Shown here: one piece after another, positions 22,865 through 45,463 of the stretch
How the letters are laid out: every line of letters begins with the position of its first letter
How positions within the stretch are numbered: position 1 is the stretch's first letter
From: a virus
DNA length: 64,000 bases
Virus record (IMG/VR): IMGVR_UViG_3300027806_000001
Location: 62,001-126,000 of that record
Reading direction: 5' to 3' (one strand)
Notes under the pieces: generated by a model
Told to the model about the DNA's origin: nothing
Seen by the model: the letters and a program-made list of their open reading frames with translations, nothing else
Databases searched by the model: none
Program-made: the position numbers and the translations under genes

Positions 22865-23736
22865 GGTTTCTTCGCTTTCTTGTTGGTTGTGCGTGAGTTT
22901 CTTAGCTGTGTGGAACGAGTGAACCAGTCCGGCCTCAAGGACCGGAGCTCCTGGTCGAACACCGGGTCGTAACTGTCGGACTTGGAGTTGGTGTAATCGC
23001 AGAGAGGATGGCCCAGCGGGTGCTTTTTCGCATTAGGCCTAGACTCCTCCCTCAGGGCCATGGCCTTGAGCTCGGCCTTGTTTAGTGCGGCAGTGTCCAG
23101 GAACCAATCGGGCCTGAGGGCCCGGATCTCCTGATCGAAGGAAGGGTCGTAGTTGTTGGACTTGGGGTTGGTGTAACGGCAGAGCGCTCCGCCCATCGGA
23201 TGCTTTTTCTGATTAGGCCTAGACTCCTCCCTCAGGGCCATGGCCTTGAGCTCGGCCTTGTTTAGTGCGGCAGTGTCCAGGAACCAATCGGGCCTGAGGG
23301 CCCGGATCTCCTGATCAAAAACCTGGTCGTAGCAAGCCCGAGAGGGGTGAGTGTACTCGCAGAGAGGATGGCCCAGTGGGTGCTTTTTCTTGCCGTTTTT
23401 TGAAGGCCTTGGATCGCCCCGCAGAGCCATGGCCTTGAGTTCGGCCTTTTTGCTTGTTGAGTCCTTGTCGCCCCACCACTGTGGTGCAACCGCCCTCAAC
23501 CTGGCCTCGAACTCAGGTTTATAGCTCGAGCTGCTTGGGTTCTTGTAGTTGTGCAGCGCACTCTTCAGCTGCTGCACCTTGAACCCCGTGGCCTCCGCCA
23601 CGGCCTCCCACAGCTTCCTGCTGTTGCCCTCGCCCCACTGCACCTCCGGCAGCTGCTCCGGGGCGATGCCGAGCTTCCCGCAGATGGCCTCGGTGACGGC
23701 CTTAATCTTCTCCCCTGTCAGGTGCCTGAGGTGCAT
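22861..23736 (-). CDS. Modular-repeat protein C (three repeats), 291 aa
   Basis: An N-terminal domain (1-~95) with ICGKLGIAPEQLPEVQWGEG and SALHNYKNPSSSSYKPEF, then three ~57-residue repeats with consensus KAELKAMALRxExRP-xx-KHPLGxxLCxYT-x4-YDPxFDQEIRALRPDWF. Two of the repeats are almost identical, including LDTAALNKAELKAMALRE twice, which shows recent duplication. Basic tail. RBS AAGGAGCAGGC is coded by the end of the preceding gene. Likely a DNA- or protein-recognition solenoid; family not recognised. Confidence 0.8.
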   Translation of the reverse strand: MHLRHLTGEKIKAVTEAICGKLGIAPEQLPEVQWGEGNSRKLWEAVAEATGFKVQQLKSALHNYKNPSSSSYKPEFEARLRAVAPQWWGDKDSTSKKAELKAMALRGDPRPSKNGKKKHPLGHPLCEYTHPSRACYDQVFDQEIRALRPDWFLDTAALNKAELKAMALREESRPNQKKHPMGGALCRYTNPKSNNYDPSFDQEIRALRPDWFLDTAALNKAELKAMALREESRPNAKKHPLGHPLCDYTNSKSDSYDPVFDQELRSLRPDWFTRSTQLRNSRTTNKKAKKP

Positions 23737-24440
23737 GCCTGCTCCTTCTTCTTCTTGGCGCGTGTTTTCCTGCGCTTGTCGGATCGTGTGAACCAGTCCG
23801 GCCTTAGGGCCCGGATCTCCTGGTAGAACACGGGGTCGTAGGACTTGGAACTGGGGTCGGTGTAGTTGCTGAGCACCCTGCCCAGGGGGTGCTTGTTCTT
23901 GCCTTTGGACACTGGCCTCGGCTCTCCCCTCAGGGCCATGGCCAGGAGCTCGGCCTTCTTAATGTCGGCTTTCTCAGATTGCGAGACAAACCAGTCCGGC
24001 CTCAAGGCCCGGATTTCCTGGTCGAACACCGGGTCGTAGGACCTGGACGAGCGGATGGTGTAGAGGACGAGCGCGTGCCCCAACGGGTGCTTGTCTCCAG
24101 CAGGCCTCGGCTCTCCCCGCAGGGCCATGGCCAGGAGCTCGGCCTTCTTGCCCTCCGGGTCGGCACTGCTCCACCACTGCGGCGCAACCACCTTCCACCT
24201 GGCGGCGAGCGCAGGCCTATAGGAGCAGTGGCTAGGGGTCTTGTAGCTACTCAACGCAGTGCTCAGCTGCTTTTCCGGGAATCCCACGACCTCATGGGCG
24301 ACGCTCCAGACGACCTTGGACCTGTCACGGTTCCAGTCGACCTTCCCTCCCTGGAGATCCTCCACGGTCACCCCCAGCCTGGAGCACATGAGCTCCAGCA
24401 TCCGGCTCTTTATTCCCTCCGTCAGACTGTTCCTAGGCAT
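23718..24440 (-). CDS. Modular-repeat protein B (two repeats), 240 aa
   Basis: Same N-terminal domain (SLTEGIKSRMLELMCSRLGV, KVDWNRDRSKVVWSVAHEVV) and two ~60-residue repeats (KKAELLAMALRGEPRP ... FDQEIRALRPDWF). One repeat has FYQEIRAL in place of FDQEIRAL. Start MPRNSLTEG, with AAGAAGGAGCAGGC upstream. Ends KKKKEQACTSGT, running 19 nt into the next gene, so its last residues are set by that gene's ribosome-binding site and start. Confidence 0.8.
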   Translation of the reverse strand: MPRNSLTEGIKSRMLELMCSRLGVTVEDLQGGKVDWNRDRSKVVWSVAHEVVGFPEKQLSTALSSYKTPSHCSYRPALAARWKVVAPQWWSSADPEGKKAELLAMALRGEPRPAGDKHPLGHALVLYTIRSSRSYDPVFDQEIRALRPDWFVSQSEKADIKKAELLAMALRGEPRPVSKGKNKHPLGRVLSNYTDPSSKSYDPVFYQEIRALRPDWFTRSDKRRKTRAKKKKEQACTSGT

Positions 24441-25504
24441 GCCTGCTCCTTCTTCTTGGCTGCGCGCGAGTTTTTGAGCTTGTCGGATCGCGTGAACCAC
24501 TGCGGGGCCAGGGCCCGGATCTCCTGATCGAACACAGGGTCGTAGCACTTGGAACCGGAGTTGGTGTAGTTGTAAAGCGCCCTGCCCAGCGGATGCTTGC
24601 CTGCAACAGGCTTGGGCTCACCCCGCAGGGCCATGGCCAGGAGTTCGGCCTTGTTCAGGTTAGCTTTCTCAGATTGCGAGACAAACCAGTCCGGCCTGAG
24701 GGCCCGGATCTCCTGGTCGAACACGGGGTCGTAAGAATCGGACGAGGGGTTGGTGTAGTCGCAGAGCACCGCACCCAGCGGGTGCTTGCCTGCAACAGGC
24801 TTGGGCTCACCCCGCAGGGCCATGGCCTTGATCTCAGCCTTCTTCAGGTCGGCTTTGTCAGATTTTGAGACAAACCAGCTTGGAGCCAGGGCCCGGATCT
24901 CCTGGTCGAACACGGGGTCGTAAGAATCGGACGAGGGGTTGGTGTAGTTCTTGAGCACCGCACCCAGCGGGTGCTTGCCTGCAACAGGCTTGGGCTCACC
25001 CCGCAGGGCCATGGCCTTGAGTTCAAGCTTGTTCTGAGCCGCGGTATCGACGAACCAGTCCGGTCTGGCGGCGCGAATCTCTTTGTCGAACACCGGGTCG
25101 TAGGAGTTGGACGAGAGGTTGGTGTACATGCAGAGCACCGCACCCAGCGGGTGCTTCTTATTTGGCCTCGGCTCGCCCCTCAGGGCCATGGCCAGGAGCT
25201 CGGCCTTCCTACCCTCCGGGTCGGCCGTGCTAAACCACTGCGGCGCAACCACCCTCAACCTGGCCTCGAACTTAGGTCGATATGTGTCCCTGTTGCTCGG
25301 ATTCTTGTAGTTGTGCAGCGCATTCTTCAGCTGCCCCTCCGAGAATCCCACCACCTCATGGGCCACGCTCCACACGGCCTTGGACTTGTCCCGGTTCCAG
25401 TCGACCTTCCCTCCGCGGAGATCCTCCACGGTCACTCCCAGCCTGGAGCACATGAGCTCCAGCATCCGCTGCTTCATGCCCTCCGTCAGGTTGTTCCTGT
25501 TCAT
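24422..25504 (-). CDS. Modular-repeat protein A (four repeats), 360 aa
   Basis: N-terminal domain (MNRNNLTEGMKQRMLELMCS...SVAHEVVGFSEGQLKNALHN) that ends in a half-repeat (YRPKFEARLRVVAPQWF), then four full repeats, e.g. KLELKAMALRGEPKPVAGKH and PLGAVLCDYTNPSSDSYDPV. Repeats 2, 3 and 4 are nearly identical (EPKPVAGKHPLG), and variable positions cluster at the LC(D/M)YT and SSxSYD sites. With B and C this gives 4, 2 and 3 units in consecutive genes, a copy-number pattern typical of modular recognition arrays. Function inferred, not shown. Confidence 0.8.
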   Translation of the reverse strand: MNRNNLTEGMKQRMLELMCSRLGVTVEDLRGGKVDWNRDKSKAVWSVAHEVVGFSEGQLKNALHNYKNPSNRDTYRPKFEARLRVVAPQWFSTADPEGRKAELLAMALRGEPRPNKKHPLGAVLCMYTNLSSNSYDPVFDKEIRAARPDWFVDTAAQNKLELKAMALRGEPKPVAGKHPLGAVLKNYTNPSSDSYDPVFDQEIRALAPSWFVSKSDKADLKKAEIKAMALRGEPKPVAGKHPLGAVLCDYTNPSSDSYDPVFDQEIRALRPDWFVSQSEKANLNKAELLAMALRGEPKPVAGKHPLGRALYNYTNSGSKCYDPVFDQEIRALAPQWFTRSDKLKNSRAAKKKEQACLGTV

Positions 25505-26951: not shown

Positions 26952-26979
26952 ATTCTAACCTGCGAGGTGGGGTTGTTTA
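26952..26979 (-). promoter_or_regulatory. Phage promoter TAAACA-N16-TAGAAT
   Basis: -35 at 26974-26979, -10 TAGAAT at 26952-26957, spacer 16. The TAA is the stop of the gene at 26977-27687. Its downstream product is the tRNA-Arg region and perhaps the helicase operon. Confidence 0.78.
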
Positions 26980-27687
26980 GCCCTTCTTCTTGTTCTTCTT
27001 TTTGCCCTTGGACTGCGCCCTGGCCAGCTCGGCCGCCTGCACCTTGTCATAGGCGCGGGTTCCGTAGTAGCCCAGCGGAAGTCCGGCGGCGATCAACCCT
27101 CCGGCGATGTCTCCGCCCACGGCGGCAAAGGGCTTGAAGCCGTATTCGCTGGCCTCCTCGGGATCGATCCGACCCTTCATGGCCTCGATGGCCTTGGCCC
27201 GGCCGAGGTCGTGGGATCCGCCCAAAAAGAACAAAGACGAACTGGGCTCGAAGGCCTGCGGCTTCTTGGATCGAGCCTTGTCGAACTTCGCGGCGATGTC
27301 GTGCATCTTGTTGCGACGGATGGCCGACGCGATGAGATGGCCCAGGAACGCGCCGGCGACGCCTCCCCCGATCGCTCCCAGGCCCTGGACGTCGGGATCG
27401 CCGCTTGCCAGGTTGCCTATGCCATAGCCGGCCCCTGCGCCGAGGGCTATTCCCGGCAAGGTCATCAGGGCTCCGCTGGTCAGCGGGTTCTTGACGAAGA
27501 AGCCTGGATCCTCGCCGATGGCCTCGGCCATGGCGGTGGCCCGGCCTGGCCTGGACTCGAAGGCCGTGTTCCAGCCGGCAGGCCCCCAGTAGTCGCTGAA
27601 CAGACCTCCGCCCGAATCCATGTCGAGCAGTTCCTTGGCCTTGAGGGCCTGCTTGTAGCCAGGGAGATGGTGGAAGTAGTATGACAT
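26977..27687 (-). CDS. Virion-like glycine-zipper membrane protein, 236 aa
   Basis: Starts MSYYFHHLPGYKQ, one of five proteins here with a Y-Y-x-H-H/P head. Glycine/alanine-rich segments around residues 72-115 (LPGIALGAGAGYGIGNLA, AIGGGVAGAFLGHLIASA) and 185-205 (VGGDIAGGLIAAGLPLG) look membrane-active. Basic tail KGKKKNKKKG. Position directly behind the RNA polymerase suggests an internal head or ejection protein, as inference. Confidence 0.75.
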   Translation of the reverse strand: MSYYFHHLPGYKQALKAKELLDMDSGGGLFSDYWGPAGWNTAFESRPGRATAMAEAIGEDPGFFVKNPLTSGALMTLPGIALGAGAGYGIGNLASGDPDVQGLGAIGGGVAGAFLGHLIASAIRRNKMHDIAAKFDKARSKKPQAFEPSSSLFFLGGSHDLGRAKAIEAMKGRIDPEEASEYGFKPFAAVGGDIAGGLIAAGLPLGYYGTRAYDKVQAAELARAQSKGKKKNKKKG

Positions 27688-29272: not shown

Positions 29273-29782
29273 TCACCTCTTCAACTGGCCGTACAACTCG
29301 AACGGATCGACCACGCCGCGCATCGGATTTCGCTCGCTGTTCCACCGGTTGTAGGCATCGACGGCCATGGTCGGCCCCTGGCGCCGCGCGATGGAGGAGG
29401 CGCTGTCCGAGATGCTCTGGCCCAGGTGGCCGGCCTGAGCAGACTGCTTCCCAAGGCCTGACAGCGAGTGGCCGTAGGGCTGGTTGCTCAGGTAGAAGGG
29501 GGCCTGGGAGACAGGCGGAGGAACGGCTGCGGCAGGCAGGTCGGCCGGCGCAGGAGGTCCCACGAAGTCAGGATGGCCGTAGGAGATCACAGGACTGGCG
29601 GCCGGATGACGCAGGGAGTCGCGGGCTGGATTGTACGCGACCGGCTTGTTGAACTTGGTGAGGTTCTTCGCGGCCATGAACGGAGAGCTTCTGGTGGTCC
29701 GGCTGACCGCCTCGAGGAATTTGGCCACGCCGTCGGCCGGGCCTGCCGAGGACTTCACATGGTGGGAGTAGGGTCGGGTCAT
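29273..29782 (-). CDS. Virion-like protein with PYSHHVK head, 169 aa
   Basis: MTRPYSHHVKSSAGPADGVA matches the head of the 635-aa protein (MPKPYDHHVKSAQGPGPG) over 16 positions. The rest is Pro/Ala/Ser-rich and probably disordered (PPAPADLPAAAVPPPVSQAP). ATGA-coupled to the RNA polymerase gene. Suggests co-packaging with the polymerase. Confidence 0.73.
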   Translation of the reverse strand: MTRPYSHHVKSSAGPADGVAKFLEAVSRTTRSSPFMAAKNLTKFNKPVAYNPARDSLRHPAASPVISYGHPDFVGPPAPADLPAAAVPPPVSQAPFYLSNQPYGHSLSGLGKQSAQAGHLGQSISDSASSIARRQGPTMAVDAYNRWNSERNPMRGVVDPFELYGQLKR

Positions 29783-32700
29783 TCCAGGATCCTGACCGTG
29801 TCGGTCGCCGACACCTCGCCGCGGTTGAACGCCTTGATGGCGTCCTCGCGGGTGCGGAAGGTCTTGGCCACGTTCTTGTCGGCCTTCTGCCGGCTGGCCA
29901 GGTACAGGCCGTAGAGGAACTCGTTCTTGATGAAGGGCTGCGCCTGGAAGGTCGCCGCCGAGAGCAGGTTGCGGCTAGGCAGCATCTTGCGGTAGGCCTC
30001 GTCGACCGCGGCCTGGGTGCTGGGCACGTGCAGGCGCATCTGGTCGCCGTCGAAGTCCGCGTTGAAGCCGACGACGACCGACGGGCTCAGCCTAAGGGTC
30101 GGCCCCGCGGTGAGCACCGGCCTGGCCGCCATGAAGTTGTACTTGTGCAGCACGGGCGCGCGGGTGATCATCACCGGGCGCCGCTGCATCTCGGCCAGCA
30201 GGGCGCGGTTGGCGGTGGGCGTCCTGGACTCCACCTGCTTCATGGCCTCGAGGGGCGACGCCCCGCTGGCCACCAGGGCGCGCACCACGTACGGCCTGAA
30301 GACCGAGTAGGCCATGTCCTCGGGCACGCCCACGTGGTCCATGTCCAGGGACGGATCCGGGGTGATGACCGCGTTGCCGACGCCCTCGACGGTCGAGGAC
30401 AGCACCTTGCGCTGGAACATCGAGAACTTGGGGTTGCTGCCCAGGATGTGCCGGATCAGGCCGTTGACGTTCTTCTGGCGCAGCTTGGCGCTGGCGGGAT
30501 CCGCCAGGCCGACCGTGGCCTTGACCATGTTGTACAGCGCCAGGCGCTCCTTGCCGGACGCCTCCTGGCCGAGCTCGCCCTGCAGGTCCTTCAGGTTGCG
30601 GTTCATGCCGAAGAGCTCCTTGTACAGGTAGTTCATGTCGGCGACCATCTGCATGTTGCCCGTGTCGGTGATGGGCCGGAACCGCGGCGGCAGCACCGGC
30701 ATGTCCTCCCAGAGGAAGTCCGACGGCTTGAGGTTCCGCTTCGTCATGCCCTCGAGGTACGAGAGCCTCGAGATGGCGTTGCTGCGGCGCTGGCCCCTGG
30801 CGGTGGCGATCTCCTTGCGGGCCATCTCGGCCTCGGCCTTGAGGTCCATGCCGCCGAGGCGCTGCTCCAGGCCCGCCATGCCGTCCACGCCCTTGACCTT
30901 CTCGCCTGAGATGACCCGCTCGAGGTCCTTCTTGGTGAAGCCCATGAGCGACCTGACGGCGTCCTCCATGACGGGGTTGACCACCTTGGCCGCCAGGGGG
31001 AAGTGGCCGAACTTCGACTGGTTGGTGCCGAAGATCTTGTCGTCGAAGAAGCCGCCGTCGTAGGCCTTGCCGGTGCGGAAGTCGATGTCCCGCGGATCCT
31101 GGATCTCGCCGCCCGAGAGCTTCTTGACGTCGGAGCCGGTCATGCCATAGATGTTCACGGCGCCGCCCTGGCGCTCGACGTTGACGCCGGCGCCCTTCAG
31201 CTGGGAGACGAACTTGTCCCAGACGAACGGCACGTTGACCGCGGGGACGGGGGTGCCCATCTTGACCGCGCGCCAGTACTCGTCGTTCTTCTGGCCCCGG
31301 ACCAGGCGGGCGTCCTTGATGACGTCGATCGCGCCGTGGGCCAGCAGGGCGTTGATGTCGCTGATGGAGATGCGCTTGGCGCCCTCCTCGCCGCCCTTCA
31401 CGGGGGCCTCCTCGGTGCTGTAGCCTCCGAGGTCGCGGGCCGTGAGCTTCTTCTCCGCCTGGTGGTGCAGGTTCATGAAGTAGCGGTTGCCGGTGAAGAT
31501 GCCCTCGATGTTCCGGCCGAGCCTGGGATCGAACAGCGTCTCGGTGTCGGTCAGGCCGTTCTTCTTCAGCTCGCGCTGGGCCATGTCGATGTAGGACTCG
31601 TCGACGAAGGCCGGCAGCTTGTAGGGCACCCCGGTCTTCACCGCGATCTTGCCCAGGGCGGCCTCGACGGCCTGCACCGGGTTGACGCGGCTGGTGAGCG
31701 CCAGCGGGTTGAAGGCGATCTCGTAGGGGTTGCCGTCCTTGTCCTGCGGCATGTCCTTGTCGTCGACCACGGCCGAGACGACGCCCTTGTCGCCGTACCT
31801 GCCGACGAGCTTGTCGCCGACGCCCATGGGCTTGTAGCTCTTGATGGCCACCTGCCAGCCGCTGCGGGTGCGGGTGACGTCGGTGACGACGCCGGGCTGG
31901 CTGTGGTCCCAGGTCTGCGCCCGGTTGCTGTACGCCGGGCGGGTGCGCTTGACCAGGCCGAAGGTGTCGCCCTGGCGCTCGCCGACGCCCAGGATGACCG
32001 GGTCGCCGGGATTGACCATGGTGCCGACCTTGACGACGCCGGACCCGGCGTCGATGGCCTTGAGCTGCTCCTGGGAGTAGACGCCTGGGAACAGCGAGAC
32101 GAACCGGGAGTAGTCGGCCGAGTAGTCGTCCTTGGAGTCGTAGCCGATGGTGTACATGTGCTCCGAGGACATCTTCTCGGCCGCGGTCTTGGACATCACC
32201 ACGCCGTCCTCGAAGTTGGCGCCGCCGAGCTCCGGGTCGCCCCACACCGTGTAGGCCACGCGCAGGTTCTTGCCCATGGCGAGCCGGCCCTTGTCGTCGG
32301 TGTAGTTCGACTTGGCCAGGAGCTGCCCCGGCTGCACCTGGTCGCCCACCTTGACCATCGCCGTGTTGTGCAGGAACGTGTTGTGAATGACCAGGCCGCA
32401 GTTCACGGCGAAGACGTGGCTGTTGGCCACGGTGAAGTCGTAGACCCGCTCCTCGGCAGGCGCCTCGACGACCTCCTCGACGATGTCCCACATGACGTCG
32501 GACTTCGCCCAGGCCTCGAACGGACCCCTGGCGTTTTGGCGCGACACCTTTCCTGCGGATGCGTCCTTGTAGGCGCGCATCGGAACATCGTGCTCAAACC
32601 CGGCATAGACCAGCTGCCTGCTCTTGGCCGGCAGCGGTATGAACTCGAACACGGAGGTTCGGTAGGAAGAAGACCTCAACGACGAAAGTTTGAGGTTGCG

Positions 32701-35700
32701 GTCGGAATAGAGGAACCACTTGTCCAGCTTGGCCAGATGCGTCGAGATGACCCTGAGGCCGTAGGCATCCGCCCAATTCGGATTAGTGGAACTGAGCTGC
32801 CTGTCGGAAAGAACCGTGGAGAACACCCCGAGGCCGGACAGAAGATCGATGAGAGCGTCACGCATGGCGCGGGAAGTGGTCCATGCTTCCAATTGAACCG
32901 CGCCATTCGAGTCCTCGTGCAGGCATCCGTCGCCTGCGAAATAGCCTGCGACAAGGCCATGCCTGAACGCTTCGGAGCGGTCGAAGGCTCTTTCGGACGG
33001 ACACTTGTGAGCGCTGCCGTGGCCAAATTCAGCCACCAGCCACGACGCCACTTCGGAGGAGGTAAAGCTGACCTTGCCGGCGTCCGCCTTGTTGTCGTGA
33101 GGCTTCAAGCCCAGTTGAACAATCAGTTGCTCGAGTTCAGCCCTGCGAGAAGCATCCTTCACCGCGAGGATGACCATGTTCGGCTGCGAAGGCGGAACAT
33201 GGCCCTCGGCCAGGTAGATGCCGGCCAGAAGACCCCATTCGTGGGAATCGCGTTTATCGACGGAGTCCTTCGGATTGTCCATTGCGCATACCGGCAGTCG
33301 AGTCGTGCCGACCACGCACTCGTCCGGGTACAGGGGCACCAGCTTTCCGTCCTCTCCCATGGTGACCAGGGAGTGGTCCTCGGTGACGACCACGGTCCTG
33401 CCACCGCGGGTGCGCACCTGGACCATCCTGCGGTCGTTGGTCAGCTCGACGAAGGCCGTCACGGGCTCCCACGAGGACCTGCAGGTCTCCGGATCGATCG
33501 AGCGGATGAGGTCTCCTGCCGCGAAGGCGTACTGGTCCGCGCGCACGTGCATCCTGCGGTCACCCCGCAGAATCCACACCTTGGTGGACCCCTTGACGCA
33601 CTTCCTGTTGAACGGGAAGTTGTTGTAGGTCTCGTACCTGCGCTTCGTCTTGCCGTGCTTCACCTCGACGAAGTCCGGGTCGACCGCGGTGACGACGCCG
33701 GGGCCCAGCTCCTTCTCCGCCGTCACGGCCGCCAGGGCCGACTGCAGCTGCTCCTCGTAGGCGCGGCCCTCGGGATCCTCGGAGTCGAGGCCCTGCACCA
33801 GGGGCGACTCGGCGTCCCGCACCGGCAGGGCCTGGGTGAAGTACTTGCTGCCCATCAGCAGGCGGCCGCCCTTGATGCCCGACACGCCGGGCACGAGGTT
33901 CGAGTTCACGTTGAACATCGCGTTGTGCGACGGCAGCTCGAACTGCACCGCCTTGGGGTCGACGTAGGAGATCTCGCCGCCGACCATGGCGCGGACCATG
34001 TCGCCGGTCTTGGCGGCCTTGGCCAGTTCGCCCGGGAAGGCCACGATGGAGTCGGTCACCTGGCGCGCGGGCACGGGCTTGACCTCGCCGGTCCTCGGGT
34101 CGCGCAACCTGGAGTAGAGCTGGCCGTCGGTGCCCTTGATGGCGCCCACGGTGAGGCGGAGGTCGACGCCGACGCTGGAGCTCTCGGGCGTTCGAACGGG
34201 ATCGATGAACCCGAAGTGCGACGGCTGCACCGACCGGCTGTCGATGGGAATGCCGTGGGCGCCCGAGGAGATGCCGCCCTCGCCGGTGCGGATGACGCGC
34301 ATGTTCTGGTCGAGGATCTCCATGGGGTTCACCTCCTCGATCGGAGCGCCAAGGCCGGAGCCCATGAGCACGCCGTTGAGGGCCGGGGTGAACACGCCGT
34401 TCTTCAGCGGCTCGAGGTTGCCGCGGTTGGTCGCCTTGAACAGGGCCGTCCGCAGGATGCCGCCGGCGTCCTTCTCGATGCGCTCCGAGAAGAAGTCCTC
34501 CGGGCCGAGGAACTTCTGGTAGGCCAGGCTGTCGCGGTCGTCCTGGTCCTCGAGGCCCTTCTGAGCGTTGAGGATCTTCTGGCTGGCCCTCAGCAGGGTG
34601 CGGCCCGAGATCTTGCCGAAGTCGTCGTCCGTGAGATCGACCGGGGTCATCGGCCCGATCTCCACCGGGGCGGCCTCCTTGGTCTCCATCAGGGTGTTGA
34701 GGTCGGCCGCGGCCTTGACCCCGACCGACAGGCGGAATCCGCCGCGCGGCTTGGGGTCGAGCAGCAGGCTGCGACGGAGCTGCTCCAGCTCGGGGCACTC
34801 GATCTCGACGCAGTACTCGCCGCTCATCGGCGGCAGCACCTTGACCAGGTCGTAGGTGAAGCGGCGGCCGGAGCCGCAGGTCGCCTCGAAGTCCTTGCGG
34901 AAGACCTTGCGCAGCTTCTTGATCTCGTCCGCCTCGATGACGGTCAGCCTGCCGTCGCCCTTGGCGATGCCGGGAGCCTTGTCCGAGTCCCTGAGGGCGT
35001 AGTACACGCCGTCGATCAGGCCGGATGGAACCGTGATGTAGCCCTCGGAGTCGATGCGCAGGGTGCCGCGGATGGGCACGGAGGCGGCCTTGGCGCGGTA
35101 GCCCAGCGTGCGCCGCGTCACCTCGGGGTCGAGCACCGTGGACTCGAGGGCGGTGCGGATGCCGGAGTAGATCGTGTTCTCGTCGAGGTCCTTGGACGGC
35201 TCGTTGGTCAGGCGCTCGTAGATGCGCCCTGCGTCGTAGGCCGAGCCTTCCTTGCTGGACGCCAGCAGGTCCTTGCCCCACGTCTTTTCAAGTTCATCAT
35301 CGGTGACGCCCAGGGCGCGGAACATGGGGTAGGCCGGGGCGACGGACTGGCCGATCTCCACGACGAACTTGCCGGTGTCCGGCATGAGGGCCATGCGGAA
35401 GCCGCGGCCCTTGCCCGGCAGGGTGTTGAAGTGAGCCTCGTACTCGCCCGACTTCCTGCGGCGGACGAACGGGCCCGGCAGGAGGCGGGACTGGTTGGTC
35501 ACCACGTACTCGCTGCCGTTGGAGATGAAGGTGCCGCGCGGGGTGAGGTACGGCACGCGGGCCAGGGTGACCGGCTTGTCGGTCTGATCGATGACCGCCC
35601 CGGTGGCGTTGTCCTTCATGACCAGGTGCCCGCGCAGCGGGGTGTACAGGCTCTGGCCCTGCATGAGGGCCTTCTGCTGGTCCTTCAGGGTGTACTCGGG

Positions 35701-35883
35701 GGCGCCGGCGTAGTCGACGTCGGCGGCCTCGACCGTGTACCGGGAGTTGGACAGGGGGAACCTTGCGGCGACGGCCTTCCGGACGCCGTCCAGGATGTTC
35801 CGGCGGATCGTGGAGTAGTCGTCGAAGCGCCGCATCTCGGGCTGGGCGGGGGCCAGCAACGAGTTCAGGTCCTGGGGAGGCAT
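29779..35883 (-). CDS. Fused RNA polymerase beta / beta-prime (N-terminal part) with intein
   Basis: 2034 aa. Beta: GTFISNGSEYVV (118-129), FGFIDPVRTPESSSVGVDLR (557-576), GKNLRVAYTVW and NFEDGVVMS after the intein, GDKLVGRYGDKGVV (1356-1369) and FNPLALTSRVNPVQ (1391-1404). Beta-prime begins near 1594 with IQDPRDIDFRTGKAYDGGFF and reaches NADFDGDQM (1941-1949), the three metal-binding Asp of the catalytic loop. The beta-prime zinc-binding segment after KIFG is deleted. The protein stops ~85 residues past the active site, so bridge helix and trigger loop must lie in another gene, not in this window. An intein occupies 762-1168. A -10 box exactly 6 nt before ATG predicts a leaderless mRNA. Surrounding virion-like genes suggest a packaged (virion) RNA polymerase, as in phiKZ-type phages. 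Confidence 0.95.
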   Translation of the reverse strand: MPPQDLNSLLAPAQPEMRRFDDYSTIRRNILDGVRKAVAARFPLSNSRYTVEAADVDYAGAPEYTLKDQQKALMQGQSLYTPLRGHLVMKDNATGAVIDQTDKPVTLARVPYLTPRGTFISNGSEYVVTNQSRLLPGPFVRRRKSGEYEAHFNTLPGKGRGFRMALMPDTGKFVVEIGQSVAPAYPMFRALGVTDDELEKTWGKDLLASSKEGSAYDAGRIYERLTNEPSKDLDENTIYSGIRTALESTVLDPEVTRRTLGYRAKAASVPIRGTLRIDSEGYITVPSGLIDGVYYALRDSDKAPGIAKGDGRLTVIEADEIKKLRKVFRKDFEATCGSGRRFTYDLVKVLPPMSGEYCVEIECPELEQLRRSLLLDPKPRGGFRLSVGVKAAADLNTLMETKEAAPVEIGPMTPVDLTDDDFGKISGRTLLRASQKILNAQKGLEDQDDRDSLAYQKFLGPEDFFSERIEKDAGGILRTALFKATNRGNLEPLKNGVFTPALNGVLMGSGLGAPIEEVNPMEILDQNMRVIRTGEGGISSGAHGIPIDSRSVQPSHFGFIDPVRTPESSSVGVDLRLTVGAIKGTDGQLYSRLRDPRTGEVKPVPARQVTDSIVAFPGELAKAAKTGDMVRAMVGGEISYVDPKAVQFELPSHNAMFNVNSNLVPGVSGIKGGRLLMGSKYFTQALPVRDAESPLVQGLDSEDPEGRAYEEQLQSALAAVTAEKELGPGVVTAVDPDFVEVKHGKTKRRYETYNNFPFNRKCVKGSTKVWILRGDRRMHVRADQYAFAAGDLIRSIDPETCRSSWEPVTAFVELTNDRRMVQVRTRGGRTVVVTEDHSLVTMGEDGKLVPLYPDECVVGTTRLPVCAMDNPKDSVDKRDSHEWGLLAGIYLAEGHVPPSQPNMVILAVKDASRRAELEQLIVQLGLKPHDNKADAGKVSFTSSEVASWLVAEFGHGSAHKCPSERAFDRSEAFRHGLVAGYFAGDGCLHEDSNGAVQLEAWTTSRAMRDALIDLLSGLGVFSTVLSDRQLSSTNPNWADAYGLRVISTHLAKLDKWFLYSDRNLKLSSLRSSSYRTSVFEFIPLPAKSRQLVYAGFEHDVPMRAYKDASAGKVSRQNARGPFEAWAKSDVMWDIVEEVVEAPAEERVYDFTVANSHVFAVNCGLVIHNTFLHNTAMVKVGDQVQPGQLLAKSNYTDDKGRLAMGKNLRVAYTVWGDPELGGANFEDGVVMSKTAAEKMSSEHMYTIGYDSKDDYSADYSRFVSLFPGVYSQEQLKAIDAGSGVVKVGTMVNPGDPVILGVGERQGDTFGLVKRTRPAYSNRAQTWDHSQPGVVTDVTRTRSGWQVAIKSYKPMGVGDKLVGRYGDKGVVSAVVDDKDMPQDKDGNPYEIAFNPLALTSRVNPVQAVEAALGKIAVKTGVPYKLPAFVDESYIDMAQRELKKNGLTDTETLFDPRLGRNIEGIFTGNRYFMNLHHQAEKKLTARDLGGYSTEEAPVKGGEEGAKRISISDINALLAHGAIDVIKDARLVRGQKNDEYWRAVKMGTPVPAVNVPFVWDKFVSQLKGAGVNVERQGGAVNIYGMTGSDVKKLSGGEIQDPRDIDFRTGKAYDGGFFDDKIFGTNQSKFGHFPLAAKVVNPVMEDAVRSLMGFTKKDLERVISGEKVKGVDGMAGLEQRLGGMDLKAEAEMARKEIATARGQRRSNAISRLSYLEGMTKRNLKPSDFLWEDMPVLPPRFRPITDTGNMQMVADMNYLYKELFGMNRNLKDLQGELGQEASGKERLALYNMVKATVGLADPASAKLRQKNVNGLIRHILGSNPKFSMFQRKVLSSTVEGVGNAVITPDPSLDMDHVGVPEDMAYSVFRPYVVRALVASGASPLEAMKQVESRTPTANRALLAEMQRRPVMITRAPVLHKYNFMAARPVLTAGPTLRLSPSVVVGFNADFDGDQMRLHVPSTQAAVDEAYRKMLPSRNLLSAATFQAQPFIKNEFLYGLYLASRQKADKNVAKTFRTREDAIKAFNRGEVSATDTVRILE
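32380..33600 (-). mobile_element. LAGLIDADG intein in the beta part of the polymerase
   Basis: 407 aa, Cys1 (residue 762) to His-Asn (1167-1168) with Thr as +1 residue. Block A CVKGSTKVWI, block B VVVTEDHSLV, LAGLIDADG helices GLLAGIYLAEGH (884-895) and GLVAGYFAGDG (976-986), then VYDFTVANSHVFAVNCGLVI before HN. It splits the highly conserved FNRK / TFLHNTAMV region that precedes GDQVQPGQLLA. Splicing residues are all present, so both splicing and homing activities look intact. Confidence 0.93.
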
Positions 35884-36952: not shown

Positions 36953-37525
36953 TCAACCGCCTGAATTGTTGTTCTCGAACGGACGCCAGTCCCAGTCAAC
37001 CGGACGGTTGCCTTGCTCGTAGTACGGCTTGGGAGCCTCTCCGCCGAACATGGAGTCCCACGCCGTGCGGTTGATGGCCGCATCGGCCACGGCGCCCTGG
37101 TGGACCAGCTGCTCGACCGTTCCCTTGTGCTCGGGACTCTTGCTGAGCGTCTGTGCGGCGGTGCCGTACTGCTCGGGATTGTCGAAGTACTGCGCCTCGT
37201 CTGCAAGGCGCGAGTTGACGAAGTAGCGGCCGCCGAGGCCAAGACCAAGGCCGGCCAGGGCTCCGATGCCTCCAAGGCCCGACTCGCCGCGGCGACGGCC
37301 GCGCAGGCGGTCCAGGATGGAGCCGACGCCGTAGCCCAGCAGGGCGCCGCCGGCGCCGTAGAGCAGGTTGTTGCCCAGGCCGCTGTCGGCTCCGAACGGA
37401 TTGACGAATCCGTGCAGGTCCCTGGCGTTCCACTGGCCAGGCGCAGCCGCAGCGTAGTAGGGCGTGTCCGCCTGCTTGCTCTCGGTTTCGGCCCGCTTCT
37501 GCATGTGGTGGGAGTAGTAGGCCAT
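36953..37525 (-). CDS. Virion-like protein with YYSHH head, 190 aa
   Basis: MAYYSHHMQKRAETESKQAD, then two glycine zippers (LLYGAGGALLGYGVGSILD; GIGALAGLGLGLGGRYFV) and an acidic C-terminus with many Asn (PFENNNSGG). RBS AAGGAAT is present and a TACAAT -10 lies ~35 nt upstream. Inferred virion protein. Confidence 0.76.
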   Translation of the reverse strand: MAYYSHHMQKRAETESKQADTPYYAAAAPGQWNARDLHGFVNPFGADSGLGNNLLYGAGGALLGYGVGSILDRLRGRRRGESGLGGIGALAGLGLGLGGRYFVNSRLADEAQYFDNPEQYGTAAQTLSKSPEHKGTVEQLVHQGAVADAAINRTAWDSMFGGEAPKPYYEQGNRPVDWDWRPFENNNSGG

Positions 37526-39861: not shown

Positions 39862-41769
39862 TCAGTTGGTCCTCGTGGCGTAGTTCCCGTAGGGGGACCG
39901 GCCCTGGTCAGGTGGTCCAAGGACGGCCTGCAGCAGGGCGGGATCGTTCAGCAGCATCGTCATCGTGGCCGGATCGACCGCCTGGCTCAGCCTTCTGGAG
40001 GCATCGACGGTAGGCGCAGGGGACTGCAGAGCTTCCTCCCGGCTCCTGTACCAGTTGGCCAGGGTCTGGTAGGCCTGGGGATCGGAAGCGGCCAGCTCGC
40101 CAAGTTCCGCCTGGGTGCGGGAGTTCTCCGGAATCGCTCCGTAGATCGAGTCCCTGAGTTCCGGACTGACCCTCTGCAGCACATCCATGACGGCCTGCGG
40201 CGACTGGCCCAGGCCCACCAGCCTCTGGGTCAGTTCGGAGCCCAGGCCCTGCCGGTTCAAGGCTGCCTGCTCGCGGTCGAACTCGGCCCTGGCCTTGCGC
40301 TGGGAGTAGGTCTCGAGCCCCTTGAACGGAGCCGAGGCCTCCATGGCGCCGGTGGCCAGGCGGACAAATGCGTTGTCCGGAATGTCCTGCTCGAGCTGAG
40401 AGCGGATCACGTCGAGTTCCTTGGTGTCGGGATAGCTGACGTTGCCGTACTGATCCACGGGAACCCCCTGTTCGGTCGCGGATCGCAGCACATTCTCCCG
40501 GAGAGGGGCTTTGGAGAGAAGGGAGGCGGGAATGGTAAAGGCCTGCGCGGTGTTCGGGAGGCCGGTCATGCGCTGGGCCGGACCCACGGCGAGCTCCCTT
40601 GCGACTTCGCCAAAGGACGCGTTCGGATTGTCGCCCAGCAGCTCGCCTGCCGAGGAGAGGCCTGCCTCCGCACCCTGGGCGAAGTTGCCCAACCCCCAGC
40701 CGCGGCCCAGGGATCCTAAGGCGAACTGCGTCAGTTGACCCGGCACCGTCGCCGTCGCCCCGGAGCCGGAGAGGACTGCCGGAGCCATCCTGGAGCCGGA
40801 GATGGACCAGAGGGGATTGAGCGCGCTGCCGAAGGCGTTGAAGACTCCCTTGGCCCCTTGTTCACCGAACCCTGCAACCGTGCGCAAGGCGCCGGGGGAG
40901 AGCTTGGAGGAGAACTGAGGCAAGGCGAACGCCCCCTCGTACAAAGCCTTGGGGACGACCCTGCCTGCGGAGCTGACCGCCTGGCCTGCCCGGGCGACGA
41001 CCGGAGCCACCTTGGCCGGCACCGCGGACATGATTTTGCCTCCGGCGGCGGTGACGAGGTTGCCTGCCCGGGATGCCAAAGAGGGCAGCACCGCCTTGGT
41101 TGCTCCGGCTCTGCCGGCGTTGGCGACAAGGGCGGCGTTTCCCTGCCCGCCGGTGGCTGCCGCGGTCAGGGCGTGGGCTCCTGTAGCAAGTGAGGTGCCT
41201 GCCCAGTTCTGCAAGGAATTACGCGCGAGCACGGGATCCCGCTCCATGGCGTCGTACATCAGGAAGGAGTTGACGCCCGCCTTGCCTGCGTCGGGCAGGT
41301 ATTTGGTGTAGTAGGCGCCCTGATCCTCCAGGCCTTCCTGGACGGCCTGCTGGTTGTCTGTCATGTAGTTGTAGGCGATGCCTGGCCAGCTCATGTTCCA
41401 CGCCGCGCTGGCGTACGGCTGCACGGTGTCCCGCCAGAACTCCCTTGGCCTCGCGTTCCTGACGTAGGCCGGAGGCAGCAGGTCCTCCTCGGTCATCCTG
41501 CGGCCCATGATCGGAACGACCGCCGGCACGGCCTGACGACCAGGCTGATCGTAGATGCCGCCGGCGGCCCGGGAGCTGGACGCGGCGCCGGGCCGCGGCT
41601 CAGGCAGGGACGCCCCCACCGGTTCCGGTTGCCGAGTCCTTGCGTTCGACTGGACGCGGCCTGCCGGCGACATCATGCCCATCAGGTTCTGGTTCTGGAT
41701 GCTCTCCAGGGAGTTGCCGGGACCTGGGCCCTGCGCTGACTTGACGTGATGGTCGTATGGCTTGGGCAT
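39862..41769 (-). CDS. Large virion-like protein with PYDHHVK head, 635 aa
   Basis: MPKPYDHHVKSAQGPGPGNS, almost the same head as the 169-aa protein next to the polymerase. A Pro/Arg/Ser-rich region (1-100) is followed by long Ala/Gly/Val-rich parts (AGTSLATGAHALTAAATGGQ; AGNLVTAAGGKIMSAVPAKV) and a charged helical C-terminus (ETYSQRKARAEFDREQAALN). First gene of the leftward virion block; its leader has a TACAAT box and CAGGACC RBS. Candidate internal virion/ejection protein. Confidence 0.74.
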   Translation of the reverse strand: MPKPYDHHVKSAQGPGPGNSLESIQNQNLMGMMSPAGRVQSNARTRQPEPVGASLPEPRPGAASSSRAAGGIYDQPGRQAVPAVVPIMGRRMTEEDLLPPAYVRNARPREFWRDTVQPYASAAWNMSWPGIAYNYMTDNQQAVQEGLEDQGAYYTKYLPDAGKAGVNSFLMYDAMERDPVLARNSLQNWAGTSLATGAHALTAAATGGQGNAALVANAGRAGATKAVLPSLASRAGNLVTAAGGKIMSAVPAKVAPVVARAGQAVSSAGRVVPKALYEGAFALPQFSSKLSPGALRTVAGFGEQGAKGVFNAFGSALNPLWSISGSRMAPAVLSGSGATATVPGQLTQFALGSLGRGWGLGNFAQGAEAGLSSAGELLGDNPNASFGEVARELAVGPAQRMTGLPNTAQAFTIPASLLSKAPLRENVLRSATEQGVPVDQYGNVSYPDTKELDVIRSQLEQDIPDNAFVRLATGAMEASAPFKGLETYSQRKARAEFDREQAALNRQGLGSELTQRLVGLGQSPQAVMDVLQRVSPELRDSIYGAIPENSRTQAELGELAASDPQAYQTLANWYRSREEALQSPAPTVDASRRLSQAVDPATMTMLLNDPALLQAVLGPPDQGRSPYGNYATRTN

Positions 41770-41877: not shown

Positions 41878-42591
41878 ATGAACACGCGCGTCGACTACAG
41901 CCCCCTTCGCCAACATCTCATGGAGAAGACGGCCTTCCTGGGCGATCTGCTTGGATCAAGCAAGTACGAGCCGCAGATTCTGGAGGACGTACCGTCGATT
42001 GACGACTTCGATCCTATGACCCAGGACTACGAGCAGGCCCTGGACAAATACTGGAAGAGCCTGGGCTACTCGGACGTGCGGCGGCACGACTACGCCCCAT
42101 CAGGAACTCCGTACACCATGAAGGGCCCCGACGGCCGCTACTACGAGGCCGCCATGAACGAGGACCTGGGCAAGTGGGAGCTGACTCCCATGGGCGGTCC
42201 TCAGCACGACATGGCCGAGCACCCCGACGATCTGCCGGATACCTACAACCGCAAGGGTCCGAGCCTGGGCAGGGACAAGAACTCCATGGACTACAGCCTC
42301 CTTCGCCAGCACCTCATGGAGAAGATCGCAGCCTCTCCGGCCTGGACCAGGGCCGAGGGCAAGAACCCCGAGGGCGGCCTCAACGCCAAGGGCCGGGCCA
42401 GCTACAAGGCGCAGACGGGCGGCACCCTGCGTCCGCCGGTCACCAAGGATCGCGCCGACAAGAGCCCCAAGGACGCCAAGCGCCGGGCCAGCTTCTGCGC
42501 TCGAAGCGCAGGCCAGATGAAGATGTGGCCGGAGGCCGCCAAGGATCCGGAGAGTAGGCTCAGGAAGGCCCGCCGGGCCTGGGACTGCTGA
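41878..42591 (+). CDS. DUF6321-like protein with duplicated head motif, 237 aa
   Basis: Only plus-strand virion-area gene. Two copies of a head motif: VDYSPLRQHLMEKTAF at residue 5 and MDYSLLRQHLMEKIAA near 138. The C-terminal part (AEGKNPEGGLNAKGRASYKA, KRRASFCARSAGQMKMW, SRLRKARRAWDC) matches DUF6321, found in phage and marine viral proteins. An internal ATG before the second motif could yield a separate ~100-aa product. Ends before a bidirectional terminator. Leaderless start. Confidence 0.75.
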   Translation: MNTRVDYSPLRQHLMEKTAFLGDLLGSSKYEPQILEDVPSIDDFDPMTQDYEQALDKYWKSLGYSDVRRHDYAPSGTPYTMKGPDGRYYEAAMNEDLGKWELTPMGGPQHDMAEHPDDLPDTYNRKGPSLGRDKNSMDYSLLRQHLMEKIAASPAWTRAEGKNPEGGLNAKGRASYKAQTGGTLRPPVTKDRADKSPKDAKRRASFCARSAGQMKMWPEAAKDPESRLRKARRAWDC

Positions 42592-42600
42592 GCCTCCGAC

Positions 42601-42648
42601 AGCTAAAAGAAAGACCCTCGGTTTTGGCCGGGGGTCTTTCTTTTAGCT
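42601..42648. terminator. Bidirectional intrinsic terminator
   Basis: AGCTAAAAGAAAGACCC and its exact complement (17 bp each) flank a 14-nt loop; both strands end with CTTTCTTTTAGC. It separates the plus-strand gene from the GX array on the minus strand. Confidence 0.9.
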
Positions 42649-42671
42649 GCTCACTCTCACTCATCGCATGC

Positions 42672-42959
42672 TCATTCGGAGACTCCTTTGCCGTCGCCGC
42701 GGCCGCTGCCACCGCCCATGCCGCTGCCGCAGACGCTGCCGTAGCCCCAGCCTCTGCCATTGCCGTCGCCGCGGCCGCTGCCACCGCCCATGCCGCTGCC
42801 GCAGACGCTGCCGTAGCCCCAGCCTGTGCCGCTGCCATCGCCGCCGCCGCTGCCGCCGCTGCTGTGGTCCCAGCCTCTGCCGTCGCCGTTGCCTCTGCCG
42901 TTGCCGCCGCCCTTGCCCCTGCCATCGCCATCACCGTGGCCATTACCTGGGTTGCTCAT
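42672..42959 (-). CDS. GX-repeat glycine-rich protein 13 (95 aa)
   Basis: Head MSNPGNGHGDGDG. Carries an internal duplication (GWGYGSVCGSGMGGGSGRGD twice). Last copy of the second large GX array; after it the frame ends VSE with an ATGA into a 4-codon ORF and then the terminator. Function unknown. Confidence 0.86.
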   Translation of the reverse strand: MSNPGNGHGDGDGRGKGGGNGRGNGDGRGWDHSSGGSGGGDGSGTGWGYGSVCGSGMGGGSGRGDGNGRGWGYGSVCGSGMGGGSGRGDGKGVSE

Positions 42960-43240
42960 GATGAACCTCCTTCGCCGTTGCCACTGCCGTTGCCATCGCC
43001 GCTGCCGGCGCCGTCGCCGTAGCCCCTGCCGTTGCCGTAACCTTTGCCGTTGCCCCGGCCTTCGCCATCGCCGCCGCCGTTGCCGCTGCCCCAGCCTGTG
43101 CCGTGGCCGCAGCCTGTGCCGCGGCCTATGCCGTAGCCCATGCCGCTGCCCTCGCCGTCACCCGAGCCGCTGCTCCAGCCCTTGCCGTCCCCCATGCCGT
43201 TGCCCTCGCCCTCGCCATGGCCATTACCTGGGTTGCTCAT
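42956..43240 (-). CDS. GX-repeat glycine-rich protein 14 (94 aa)
   Basis: Head MSNPGNGHGEGEGNGMGDG, then a regular GX repeat with no interruptions longer than one residue. Ends GEGGSS, encoding GAAGGAGGTTCATC plus ATGA for the next gene. Function unknown. Confidence 0.86.
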   Translation of the reverse strand: MSNPGNGHGEGEGNGMGDGKGWSSGSGDGEGSGMGYGIGRGTGCGHGTGWGSGNGGGDGEGRGNGKGYGNGRGYGDGAGSGDGNGSGNGEGGSS

Positions 43241-43586
43241 TCGAAACCTCCTTCGGCATCCTCGAGTAGATCGGCTCGCGCAGCCTGAGGATGTAGTGGT
43301 CGCCCTCGCTCTGAGGCCCGACCTCCACGTCTATCATGGCCGCCTGCACCAGGTCGCACATCAGGGGGTGCACGTCCCTGAGGCGCAGCCTGAACATACC
43401 GGCCACGTCGCGCAGCTGGACGCCCGCCGGCCCCGCGGCCGACACCAGGGCCATCACGGCCTTCCTGCGGTCCGCCGAGCGCAGCAGCCGCCGGCCGGGG
43501 CCTGCCGCCTTGCGCCGGACCCTGTGCCGCTCGGCAAGCTGCTCGGCAAGCATGCGGAGCCTCGTGTCGATCGCCGGACCGCTCAT
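43224..43586 (-). CDS. Winged-helix-like protein inside a GX array, 120 aa
   Basis: Not glycine-rich. A basic N-terminal helix (LAERHRVRRKAAGPGRRLLR) is followed by a winged-helix-like unit (AVMALVSAAGPAGVQLRDVA, DLVQAAMIDVEVGPQ, HYILRLREP). The C-terminus (MPKEVSNEQPR) reads 17 nt into the next GX gene, set by its ribosome-binding site. The only ordinary protein in this array; a possible DNA-binding regulator. Confidence 0.72.
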   Translation of the reverse strand: MSGPAIDTRLRMLAEQLAERHRVRRKAAGPGRRLLRSADRRKAVMALVSAAGPAGVQLRDVAGMFRLRLRDVHPLMCDLVQAAMIDVEVGPQSEGDHYILRLREPIYSRMPKEVSNEQPR

Positions 43587-43999
43587 GCCGAGCCTCCTTT
43601 GCCGTTGCCCTTGCCGTTGCCGTAACCTTTGCCGTCGCCCCGGCCTTCGCCATCGCCGCGGCCATCGCCACCAAAGACAAAGCCATGCGCCGAGCCGTGG
43701 CCGTAGCCTTTGCCGTTGCCGTAGCCCCTGCCGCTACCGCTGCCATAGCCGCGGCCGTAACCCCTGCCGTTGCCGCTGCCGTCGCCATCACCGTGGCCCT
43801 CGCCGAAGCCGCTGCCGAGTCCATTGCCTGCGTTGCCATGGCCGCCGCCGTCACCCGTGCCATCGCCCCAGCCGCTGCCGTAGCCATGGCCGTCGCCCAT
43901 GCCGCTGCCGCGGCCGCTGCCTTCACCGCTGCCGCTGCAATAGCCGGAGCCGCTGCCGTTGCCCTCGCCGCTGCCGTTGCCGTTACCTGGGTTGCTCAT
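43583..43999 (-). CDS. GX-repeat glycine-rich protein 16 (138 aa)
   Basis: Head MSNPGNGNGSGEGNGSGSG. Contains GHGSAHGFVFGGDGRGDG on a 59-bp segment (43650-43708) identical to one in the GX gene 25 kb away at 18761-19162, plus HGNAGNGLGSGFG shared with the next gene. Longest GX copy in this array. Function unknown. Confidence 0.87.
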   Translation of the reverse strand: MSNPGNGNGSGEGNGSGSGYCSGSGEGSGRGSGMGDGHGYGSGWGDGTGDGGGHGNAGNGLGSGFGEGHGDGDGSGNGRGYGRGYGSGSGRGYGNGKGYGHGSAHGFVFGGDGRGDGEGRGDGKGYGNGKGNGKGGSA

Positions 44000-44319
44000 T
44001 CGGAACCTCCTTTGCCGTTGCCCACGCCGCTGACGCTGCCGAAGCCGCTGCCGAGTCCATTGCCTGCGTTGCCATGGCCGCTGCCGTAGCCCCCGCCGTC
44101 ACCCGTGCCATCGCCCCAGCCGCTGCCGCTGCCTTTGCCATCGCCCCAGCCGCTGCCATCGCCATAGCCCCTGCCGTTGCCGCTGCCATAGCCCCTGCCG
44201 TTGCCGCTGCCACAGCCACTGCCGTAGCCATAGCCGGTGCCATCGCCCCAGCCGCTGCCGTAGCCGTTGCCCCTGCCACAACCGTGGCCGTTGCCGTTGC
44301 CACTACCTGGGTCGCTCAT
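43996..44319 (-). CDS. GX-repeat glycine-rich protein 17 (107 aa)
   Basis: Head MSDPGSGNGNGHGCG. About 44127-44276 matches 10699-10824 in the GX gene at 10508, but with one extra 24-bp unit (GSGNGRGY repeated). Shares HGNAGNGLGSGFG with its neighbour. Function unknown. Confidence 0.87.
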   Translation of the reverse strand: MSDPGSGNGNGHGCGRGNGYGSGWGDGTGYGYGSGCGSGNGRGYGSGNGRGYGDGSGWGDGKGSGSGWGDGTGDGGGYGSGHGNAGNGLGSGFGSVSGVGNGKGGSE

Positions 44320-44648
44320 TCGGAACCTCCTTTGCCGTTGCCCCATCCGTAGCCGGTGCCCCATCCGTAGCCGGTGCCCCAGCCGCTGCCATCGCCGCTG
44401 CCGTTACCCCAGCCGGTGCCGTAGCCATAGCCGGTGCCATCGCCCCAGCCGATGCCATGGCCGTAGCCGTCGCCGCTGCCGTCGCCGTTGCCCCAGCCGT
44501 TGCCGCTGCCCGTGCCGCCGCCGTCGTTTTGGCCAAAACCGCCGCCGAAGCCCCTGCCGTCGCCATCGCCCCTGCCGCTGCCGTAGCCGCTGCCGCAGCC
44601 ATGGCCGCGGCCGCTGCCCTCACCCTGGCCGTTACCTGGGTTGCTCAT
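44316..44648 (-). CDS. GX-repeat glycine-rich protein 18 (110 aa)
   Basis: Head MSNPGNGQGEGSGRG. Unusually rich in Trp and Tyr toward the end (WGTGYGWGTGYGWGNG), encoded by three near-perfect 18-bp repeats at 44340-44385. Contains GFGGGFGQNDG, shared with the next gene. Function unknown. Confidence 0.86.
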   Translation of the reverse strand: MSNPGNGQGEGSGRGHGCGSGYGSGRGDGDGRGFGGGFGQNDGGGTGSGNGWGNGDGSGDGYGHGIGWGDGTGYGYGTGWGNGSGDGSGWGTGYGWGTGYGWGNGKGGSE

Positions 44649-44959
44649 TCGGAGCCTCCCTTGCCGTTGCCCATGCCGCCGCCAGTGCCGCAGCCGTAGC
44701 CGCCGCCGTCTCCTCTTCCGCCGCATTTGCCAAAGCCATGGCCGGTGCCGTCACCGAAGCCCTTACCTCTGCCGAAGCCCTTACCGTTGCCCCAGCCGCT
44801 GCCTTTGCCATCGCCCCAGCCGTAGCCGTCAGCGCTGCCCATGCCGCGGCCGCCGCCGTAGCCGCTGCAATAGCCGGAGCCGCTGCCGTCGTTTTGGCCA
44901 AAACCGCCGCCGAAGCCCCTGCCGCTGCCGTTGCCATTGCCACTACCTGGGTCGCTCAT
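44645..44959 (-). CDS. GX-repeat glycine-rich protein 19 (104 aa)
   Basis: Head MSDPGSGNGNGSGRGFGGGF, with QNDGSGSGYCSGYGG and Lys/Phe-rich KGFGRGKGFGDG. Shares blocks with GX proteins 11, 16 and 18. ATGA-coupled on both sides. Function unknown. Confidence 0.86.
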   Translation of the reverse strand: MSDPGSGNGNGSGRGFGGGFGQNDGSGSGYCSGYGGGRGMGSADGYGWGDGKGSGWGNGKGFGRGKGFGDGTGHGFGKCGGRGDGGGYGCGTGGGMGNGKGGSE

Positions 44960-45261: not shown

Positions 45262-45463
45262 GCCTCCTCATGTGCCGAGCGTTGAGGAAGAGCAGGGCCA
45301 GCACCCAGATAACCGAGGCCAGACAGGCGGCCACCCACACGACGGTGACCCATCCGGGACTGTTGGCGCCGTCAGCCTTGAGGACCAGGTTGGTCAGGAG
45401 CCCACTCCCTGTGAGAACAAGGCACGACCGCGCCCAAATGTATTCGTACTTTCTGGTTTTCAT
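45251..45463 (-). CDS. Two-TM membrane protein, 70 aa
   Basis: Head MKTRKYEYIWARS, two hydrophobic segments (CLVLTGSGLLTNLVL, ~14-29; VTVVWVAACLASVIWVLALL, ~39-59) and a basic tail HMRRHDG. It precedes the GX array. Function unknown. Confidence 0.68.
   Translation of the reverse strand: MKTRKYEYIWARSCLVLTGSGLLTNLVLKADGANSPGWVTVVWVAACLASVIWVLALLFLNARHMRRHDG

Follow-up and report, generated by a model that had tools for sequence, protein, structure and literature searches.

Fusions of the two large RNA polymerase subunits are found in Helicobacter and Wolbachia, in which the C terminus of beta is joined to the N terminus of beta-prime and the whole of beta-prime stays in the chain. According to the accessible part of PMC7598289, phiKZ vRNAP, phiKZ nvRNAP and cyanobacterial RNA polymerase share a break in beta-prime after the double-psi barrel, and the accessible part of PMC7481178 describes the multimeric-RNAP-encoding Caudovirales (mReC) as tailed phages from IMG/VR metagenomes. 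The main text of the latter paper uses the words "fused" and "fusion" once each, for crAssphage, and "split" and "intein" zero times. Inteins in eukaryotic RNA polymerase genes have also been published previously (PMC1635734, in the part available to us).

The DNA analyzed here (the window) is a 64-kb stretch, C1:62001-126000, of a virus record of 183,468 bases. Its minus strand encodes an RNA polymerase precursor with the following features:

29779..35883, minus strand: fused beta/beta-prime-N RNA polymerase ORF, 2,034-aa precursor (ORF call, Pfam, alignment)
33601..35883, minus strand: beta N-terminal extein, aa 1-761 (alignment)
32380..33600, minus strand: intein of 407 aa, aa 762-1168, from Cys1 to His-Asn and then Thr (Pfam, relatives' alignment)
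32779..32958, minus strand: LAGLIDADG-like endonuclease stretch in the intein, aa 976-1035 (Pfam)
31159..32379, minus strand: beta C-terminal extein, aa 1169-1575, with the beta catalytic barrel (Pfam, family HMM)
31783..31824, minus strand: GVGDKLVGRYGDKG, aa 1354-1367, holding Lys1358 and Lys1366 (56 aligned rows)
29782..31143, minus strand: beta-prime N-terminal part, aa 1581-2034, N-terminal zinc domain absent, ending at about E. coli beta-prime residue 552 (alignment)
30037..30063, minus strand: catalytic metal-binding loop NADFDGDQM, aa 1941-1949 (alignment)

The ORF begins with ATG, has zero internal stops and carries in a single chain the Pfam domains Rpb2_3 and Rpb2_6 of beta followed by Rpb1_1 and Rpb1_2 of beta-prime; Rpb1_1 scored 35.8 bits, under its 39.7 cut-off, when the ORF was searched alone, and above the cut-off when it was searched with its frame neighbours. 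The original prediction, made from this DNA without database searches, had described one polypeptide with beta and with beta-prime up to NADFDGDQM plus about 85 residues, and the ORF, the Pfam order and the 85 residues that separate the loop from the chain end agree with it. The beta module ends near aa 1575 and beta-prime starts near aa 1581, leaving a near-zero linker; we take this join to be topologically that of bacterial rpoB-rpoC fusions. Lys1358 and Lys1366 of beta, presumably the equivalents of the E. coli catalytic lysines K1065 and K1073, are unchanged across the 56 aligned rows. The beta-prime zinc-binding segment after KIFG, predicted to be deleted, is indeed missing in the alignment to Salmonella RpoC, and it is likewise missing in five family rows (L051, L084, L012, L081 and L108). 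While the layout thus stood as first described, the 407-aa intein had been overlooked.

All hallmarks of an intein are present: a Cys start, a His-Asn end, a +1 Thr, a splicing-domain match (Intein_splicing, 1.2e-10, alongside LAGLIDADG_3, 4e-9) and absence of the insertion in relatives, as evidenced by the uninterrupted sequence ...NFPFNRK|T... at the same site in the close relatives L015 and L018. The predicted spliced product of the fused precursor has 1,627 aa. Six other loci (L019, L035, L042, L043, L063 and L118) carry a homologous insert at this site, with Cys or Ser first and His-Asn|Thr last. Inserts of 138-165 aa just upstream of the site (e.g. in L085, L089 and L097) were considered as mini-inteins and rejected, as they have neither a Cys/Ser start nor a His-Asn end. 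Across the collected loci, 33 inserts of at least 300 aa were found in 26 of 174 (a total that includes seven comparator records) at about a dozen sites, some of which adjoin the catalytic loop (L030) or fall within the trigger-loop region (L022, L047, L184); most begin with Cys or Ser, end with Asn and are putative inteins. Loci with large intein-like inserts include L022, L024, L030, L031, L035, L047, L074 and L184. Endonuclease genes or introns interrupt some loci elsewhere (L014, L022, L023, L035).

The rest of beta-prime had been reported as absent from the window. This is so within the 64 kb, where the family HMM found no beta-prime C-terminal module, but the remainder is encoded in the same record: the proposed full-record search for the missing gene led to a beta-prime-C gene of 619 aa outside the window (G000:C1:53372-55231, minus strand), which contains the one Rpb1_5 match of the record (C1:53804-54691, minus strand; Pfam search). 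The stop of the fused ORF is therefore a normal gene end. In alignment, beta-prime-C keeps the sequence of the bridge helix and, in the trigger-loop region, the His, while Met-Arg of the trigger loop is replaced; the second zinc site has lost its cysteines in the window phage, L051 and L081 and retains them in L084, L012 and L108. The gap between the fused gene and the beta-prime-C gene is 36,547 bases in the window phage's record and 33,728 in the relative 3300020196_000026. Within the window's clade (own C1:53372-55231, L011, L003), beta-prime-C lies 34-37 kb off in two records.

Predicted structures were obtained by AlphaFold2 with family alignments for window aa 1169-2034 (beta-C/beta-prime-N; mean pLDDT 86.7, pTM 0.76) and for the beta-prime-C of L003, which is 80% identical to that of the window phage (mean pLDDT 86.0, pTM 0.74). 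In the L003 model the bridge-helix sequence lies in a helix of 35 residues (184-218), and the best PDB matches of this model are bacterial beta-prime chains. The beta-C/beta-prime-N model matches beta-prime or gamma chains of bacteria, cyanobacteria and plastids in the PDB, the best three by Foldseek being cyanobacterial gamma chains; the VIA-align matches listed span model residues from about 403 on, which is beta-prime-N, and barely cover the beta portion.

An alignment-based scan of IMG/VR gave at least 493 encoding relatives, of which 80 were retained; further loci came from additional searches, and 20 duplicate loci (same contig or genome) were taken out by hand before counting. In all 158 distinct loci with both the beta C-terminal and the beta-prime N-terminal modules in view, beta and beta-prime-N lie in a single ORF; 144 of these ORFs stop shortly after beta-prime-N, 12 continue through beta-prime-C and two leave the contig. 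The split chains end a median of 3 residues, and at most 58, past the beta-prime-N module. In the fully fused relative L081, a few residues link beta-prime-N and beta-prime-C. The metal loop reads NADFDGD or NADYDGD in at least 65 of the 158 loci, and the beta-prime-C gene lies 0.5-7.4 kb downstream of the fused gene on the same strand in 117 of the 144 split loci. The fused-then-split layout is thus standard for a large phage family. Among the seven comparators, four have separate beta and beta-prime ORFs and three phages (Va2, RHph_Y65 and 1.031.O) have a whole beta-prime, with no beta match within the genome stretch examined. Acinetobacter phage MD-2021a (L187, CAKLQF020000005.1) was considered as a phage whose rpoB and rpoC are separate genes and was rejected, since its contig has a bacterial nusG-rplK-rplA-rplJ-rplL-rpoB-rpoC block and looks like host chromosome filed as phage; it served as a cellular outgroup only.

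Both genes are under strong purifying selection, with a dN of 0.19 over 1,627 codons for the fused gene against L018 and of 0.17 over 619 codons for the beta-prime-C gene, synonymous sites being saturated in each case. Because the same fused ORF, with the same end, is retained in the closest relatives, and dN is low against saturated synonymous sites, the fused ORF is confirmed as a genuine gene, neither chance nor artefact.

The two genes, established here together with their homology, active-site residues, intein signature, conservation and family-wide layout, very probably encode a two-chain RNA polymerase of the cellular (double-psi barrel) type, made of the spliced 1,627-aa chain and the 619-aa chain, that would work without alpha and serve phage genes. 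As judged from the sequences, the 2,034-aa precursor would shed its 407-aa intein to leave a 1,627-aa chain comprising all of beta and beta-prime to just past the catalytic aspartate loop; the 619-aa protein would add the secondary-channel region, the bridge helix, the trigger loop and the C-terminal part of beta-prime; and the two chains would join into one active centre. The covalent link from beta to beta-prime probably makes the alpha-subunit assembly platform dispensable, and the assembled enzyme would transcribe phage genes of a class that we can only infer. In line with this, RNA_pol_L (PF01193), a single Pfam family searched in one record of uncertain completeness, gave no match for alpha in the window phage's own record. 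Weighed against the two-chain reading were the 36.5-kb gap between the genes, which bears on their co-expression, the changed trigger-loop Met-Arg, the changed second zinc site and the lack of a sigma match. Sigma regions 2 and 4, which would account for promoter recognition, were without a match in the phage's own record. Across the family, Sigma70_r2 occurs in 8 of 24 records, including both isolates (Arash and D69), and exactly one Rpb2_6 match was found in the window phage's record and in each of the 24 (records possibly incomplete), unlike the two-polymerase, sigma-free plan of phiKZ.

The enzyme might be packaged in the virion and injected for early genes, like phiKZ vRNAP, a possibility we hold tentatively and consider somewhat doubtful. 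The original prediction had favoured packaging on account of the neighbouring genes; a PHROGs search with the genes tested beside the fused gene in the window turned up no structural family. In favour of packaging, Arash carries an annotated portal gene (gp204) two genes upstream of gp206, L106 has a portal match upstream of its fused gene and, in the window phage's record, a gene with a weak head-maturation-protease match lies about 7.5 kb from beta-prime-C; the portal gene near the Arash fused gene and the protease match are hints only. Packaging may also be favoured by an N-terminal leader, Y.HH[VML], common to four proteins around the fused gene (window 26977-27687, 29273-29782, 36953-37525 and 39862-41769, all minus strand), where composition would lead one to expect 0.012 such proteins among 414 ORFs; it is possibly a packaging or processing signal, and no locus outside the phage's own genome was found with the motif. 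The single beta gene per record (24 of 24), as opposed to a vRNAP/nvRNAP pair, argues against packaging, and the sigma-like protein in 8 of 24 records, both isolates included, fits an enzyme made after infection.

Several other features of the neighbourhood were recorded. The positions in L015 and L018 orthologous to the leader begin with PYS.Y-like sequences instead of Y.HH. At window 23718-25504 (minus strand), neighbouring ORFs have repeat units like KAELLAMALRGEP...KHPLG...YT...SYDPVFDQEIRALRPDWF; window 42560-47812 (minus strand) holds a run of small overlapping Gly-rich ORFs with MSNPGNG... repeats, and an HNH endonuclease (PHROG 15471, E 4e-28) lies at window 55026-55667 (minus strand).

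A quick IQ-TREE tree was built from 84 representatives of 161 rows, clustered at 75% identity, over 867 columns, with phiKZ rows left out. The 67 split rows formed one side of a branch (SH-aLRT 98) and six separate rows another (SH-aLRT 100), with 11 whole-chain rows placed between them; paraphyly of the whole-chain rows was unsupported in this tree, as a single clade of whole rows was not rejected (p-AU 0.459). With cellular rows as the outgroup, and because cellular beta-prime is unsplit, the tree reads as fusion first and a single split later. We think it likely that beta and beta-prime first fused as a complete, alpha-less chain that was later cut once after the catalytic barrel, the chain border no longer coinciding with the beta/beta-prime border; 12 of the 158 loci still have the complete single-chain form. 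This order is drawn from parsimony only, because the AU test fails to reject the whole rows as one clade. That same result (p 0.459) suits the reverse order, in which the break after the barrel would date from the ancestor and the 12 whole-chain relatives would have joined the pieces again, an unlikely course given that the outgroup's unsplit beta-prime makes an early split cost an extra step and that all split rows fall together in a single clade (SH-aLRT 98).

Nor is the enzyme at all likely to be a phiKZ-like multisubunit polymerase whose beta pieces were re-fused with beta-prime-N. The shared beta-prime split site (PMC7598289, in its accessible part) speaks for such an origin; against it, tblastn of the fused protein against phages gave bacterial-type and Arash-like matches, with AR9 appearing only as a 3% match at 9e-6 among the 40 matches listed of 45, the structure matches were led by cyanobacterial and bacterial chains, and the split clade lies nested within fused relatives that are unsplit in the tree, which was made without phiKZ rows. 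A misassembly, a frameshift error or a truncated gene in decay, which the ORF end in mid beta-prime and the metagenomic origin of the record could suggest, is already refuted by the relatives, given the same stop place in 144 of 158 family loci, two cultured-phage groups with the same layout, the remainder of beta-prime in the same record and a dN of 0.17-0.19 at saturated synonymous sites.

No printed description of a fused beta/beta-prime-N phage enzyme, or of a fused-then-split architecture, was found in the open-access papers searched. The fusion join, the beta-prime cut and the absence of a detected alpha each have precedent; what is new, as far as our searches reach, is their combination, together with the relatives that have one chain and the single origin of the split, and the idea that the fusion of beta to beta-prime-N makes a distinct polymerase architecture of phages is supported. 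Beta and beta-prime, it appears, can be re-partitioned, and nature thereby provides a test case for asking why in cells the two stay separate subunits assembled through alpha. Since the layout is common in metagenomes and also occurs in phages that can be cultured (Arash, D69), alpha-free assembly, sigma use, packaging and intein control are directly testable.

The cultured relatives have the same layout as the window phage: Salmonella phage Arash has a fused gp206 of 1,525 aa and a separate beta-prime-C, gp216, its genes being annotated 'RNA polymerase subunit beta', and Vibrio phage D69 has a fused gene of 1,527 aa and a separate beta-prime-C gene, with Vibrio phages D181 and D148 matching in the same way (GenBank records). 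In D181 (L014, 5926-11440), a homing endonuclease stretch divides the fused gene into two CDS, perhaps as an intron. The Arash and Vibrio phage proteins are about 30-32% identical to those of the window phage, and their beta-prime-C genes lie about 0.6-5 kb from the fused gene as against 36.5 kb; Arash has no intein at the window's site, and sigma-like genes are present in Arash and D69, whereas none was found in the window phage's record. Compared with bacterial rpoB-rpoC fusions, the window chain ends after beta-prime-N, a complete beta-prime in the chain occurring in 12 of 158 family loci.

Like the RNA polymerases of crAss-like phages and of P23-45, as set out in the accessible parts of PMC7481178 and PMC10770324, the window enzyme has a cellular-RNAP homologue in one chain, but the crAss enzyme is described there as highly divergent (PMC7481178), whereas the window enzyme retains recognisable bacterial domains. 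With the mReC the family shares a cell-like beta and beta-prime, a deep branch and a tailed phage; in the part of PMC7481178 available to us, beta and beta-prime of the mReC are spoken of as subunits. In length (at least 800 aa) and in its NADxDGD motif, the window ORF would fit the mReC description, which also includes beta and beta-prime matches (COG0085/COG0086 models). Gp23-type capsid (PF07068) and TerL (PF03237) gave no match in the phage's own, possibly incomplete record, nor did PF07068 in the 24 family records, a Pfam family for which there was no positive control; no contigs from the mReC metagenome 3300017989 are among the loci listed, which include the close identifiers 3300017960, 17987, 17991 and 17992. 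Compared by description, the family may be the mReC lineage of PMC7481178 in more detail.

The split point, first thought to differ from known ones, falls where cyanobacteria and, by the accessible part of PMC7598289, phiKZ-like phages split beta-prime. On E. coli beta-prime, the profile match of the fused chain reaches residue 550 and that of beta-prime-C begins at 571; in cyanobacteria, the former covers the gamma subunit (RpoC1, 624-625 aa) up to 555-556 and the latter starts at residues 6-12 of RpoC2. To within a few tens of residues, the cut thus falls on the inter-domain boundary at which cyanobacterial beta-prime is divided. RpoC1, the top Foldseek match, extends about 69 residues beyond the end of the profile match, and cyanobacterial beta is separate. 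In phiKZ-like vRNAP and nvRNAP, as here, alpha was not found and beta-prime is cut after the double-psi barrel (PMC7598289, same part), but their beta is in two or more chains whereas that of the window phage is unbroken and fused to beta-prime-N, their genomes hold two polymerase sets where this family has a single enzyme per genome, and their plan is sigma-free whereas some relatives of the window phage carry a sigma-like protein. If phiKZ-like phages, cyanobacteria and the window family were indeed cut independently at one boundary, this would point to a break point that the structure tolerates.
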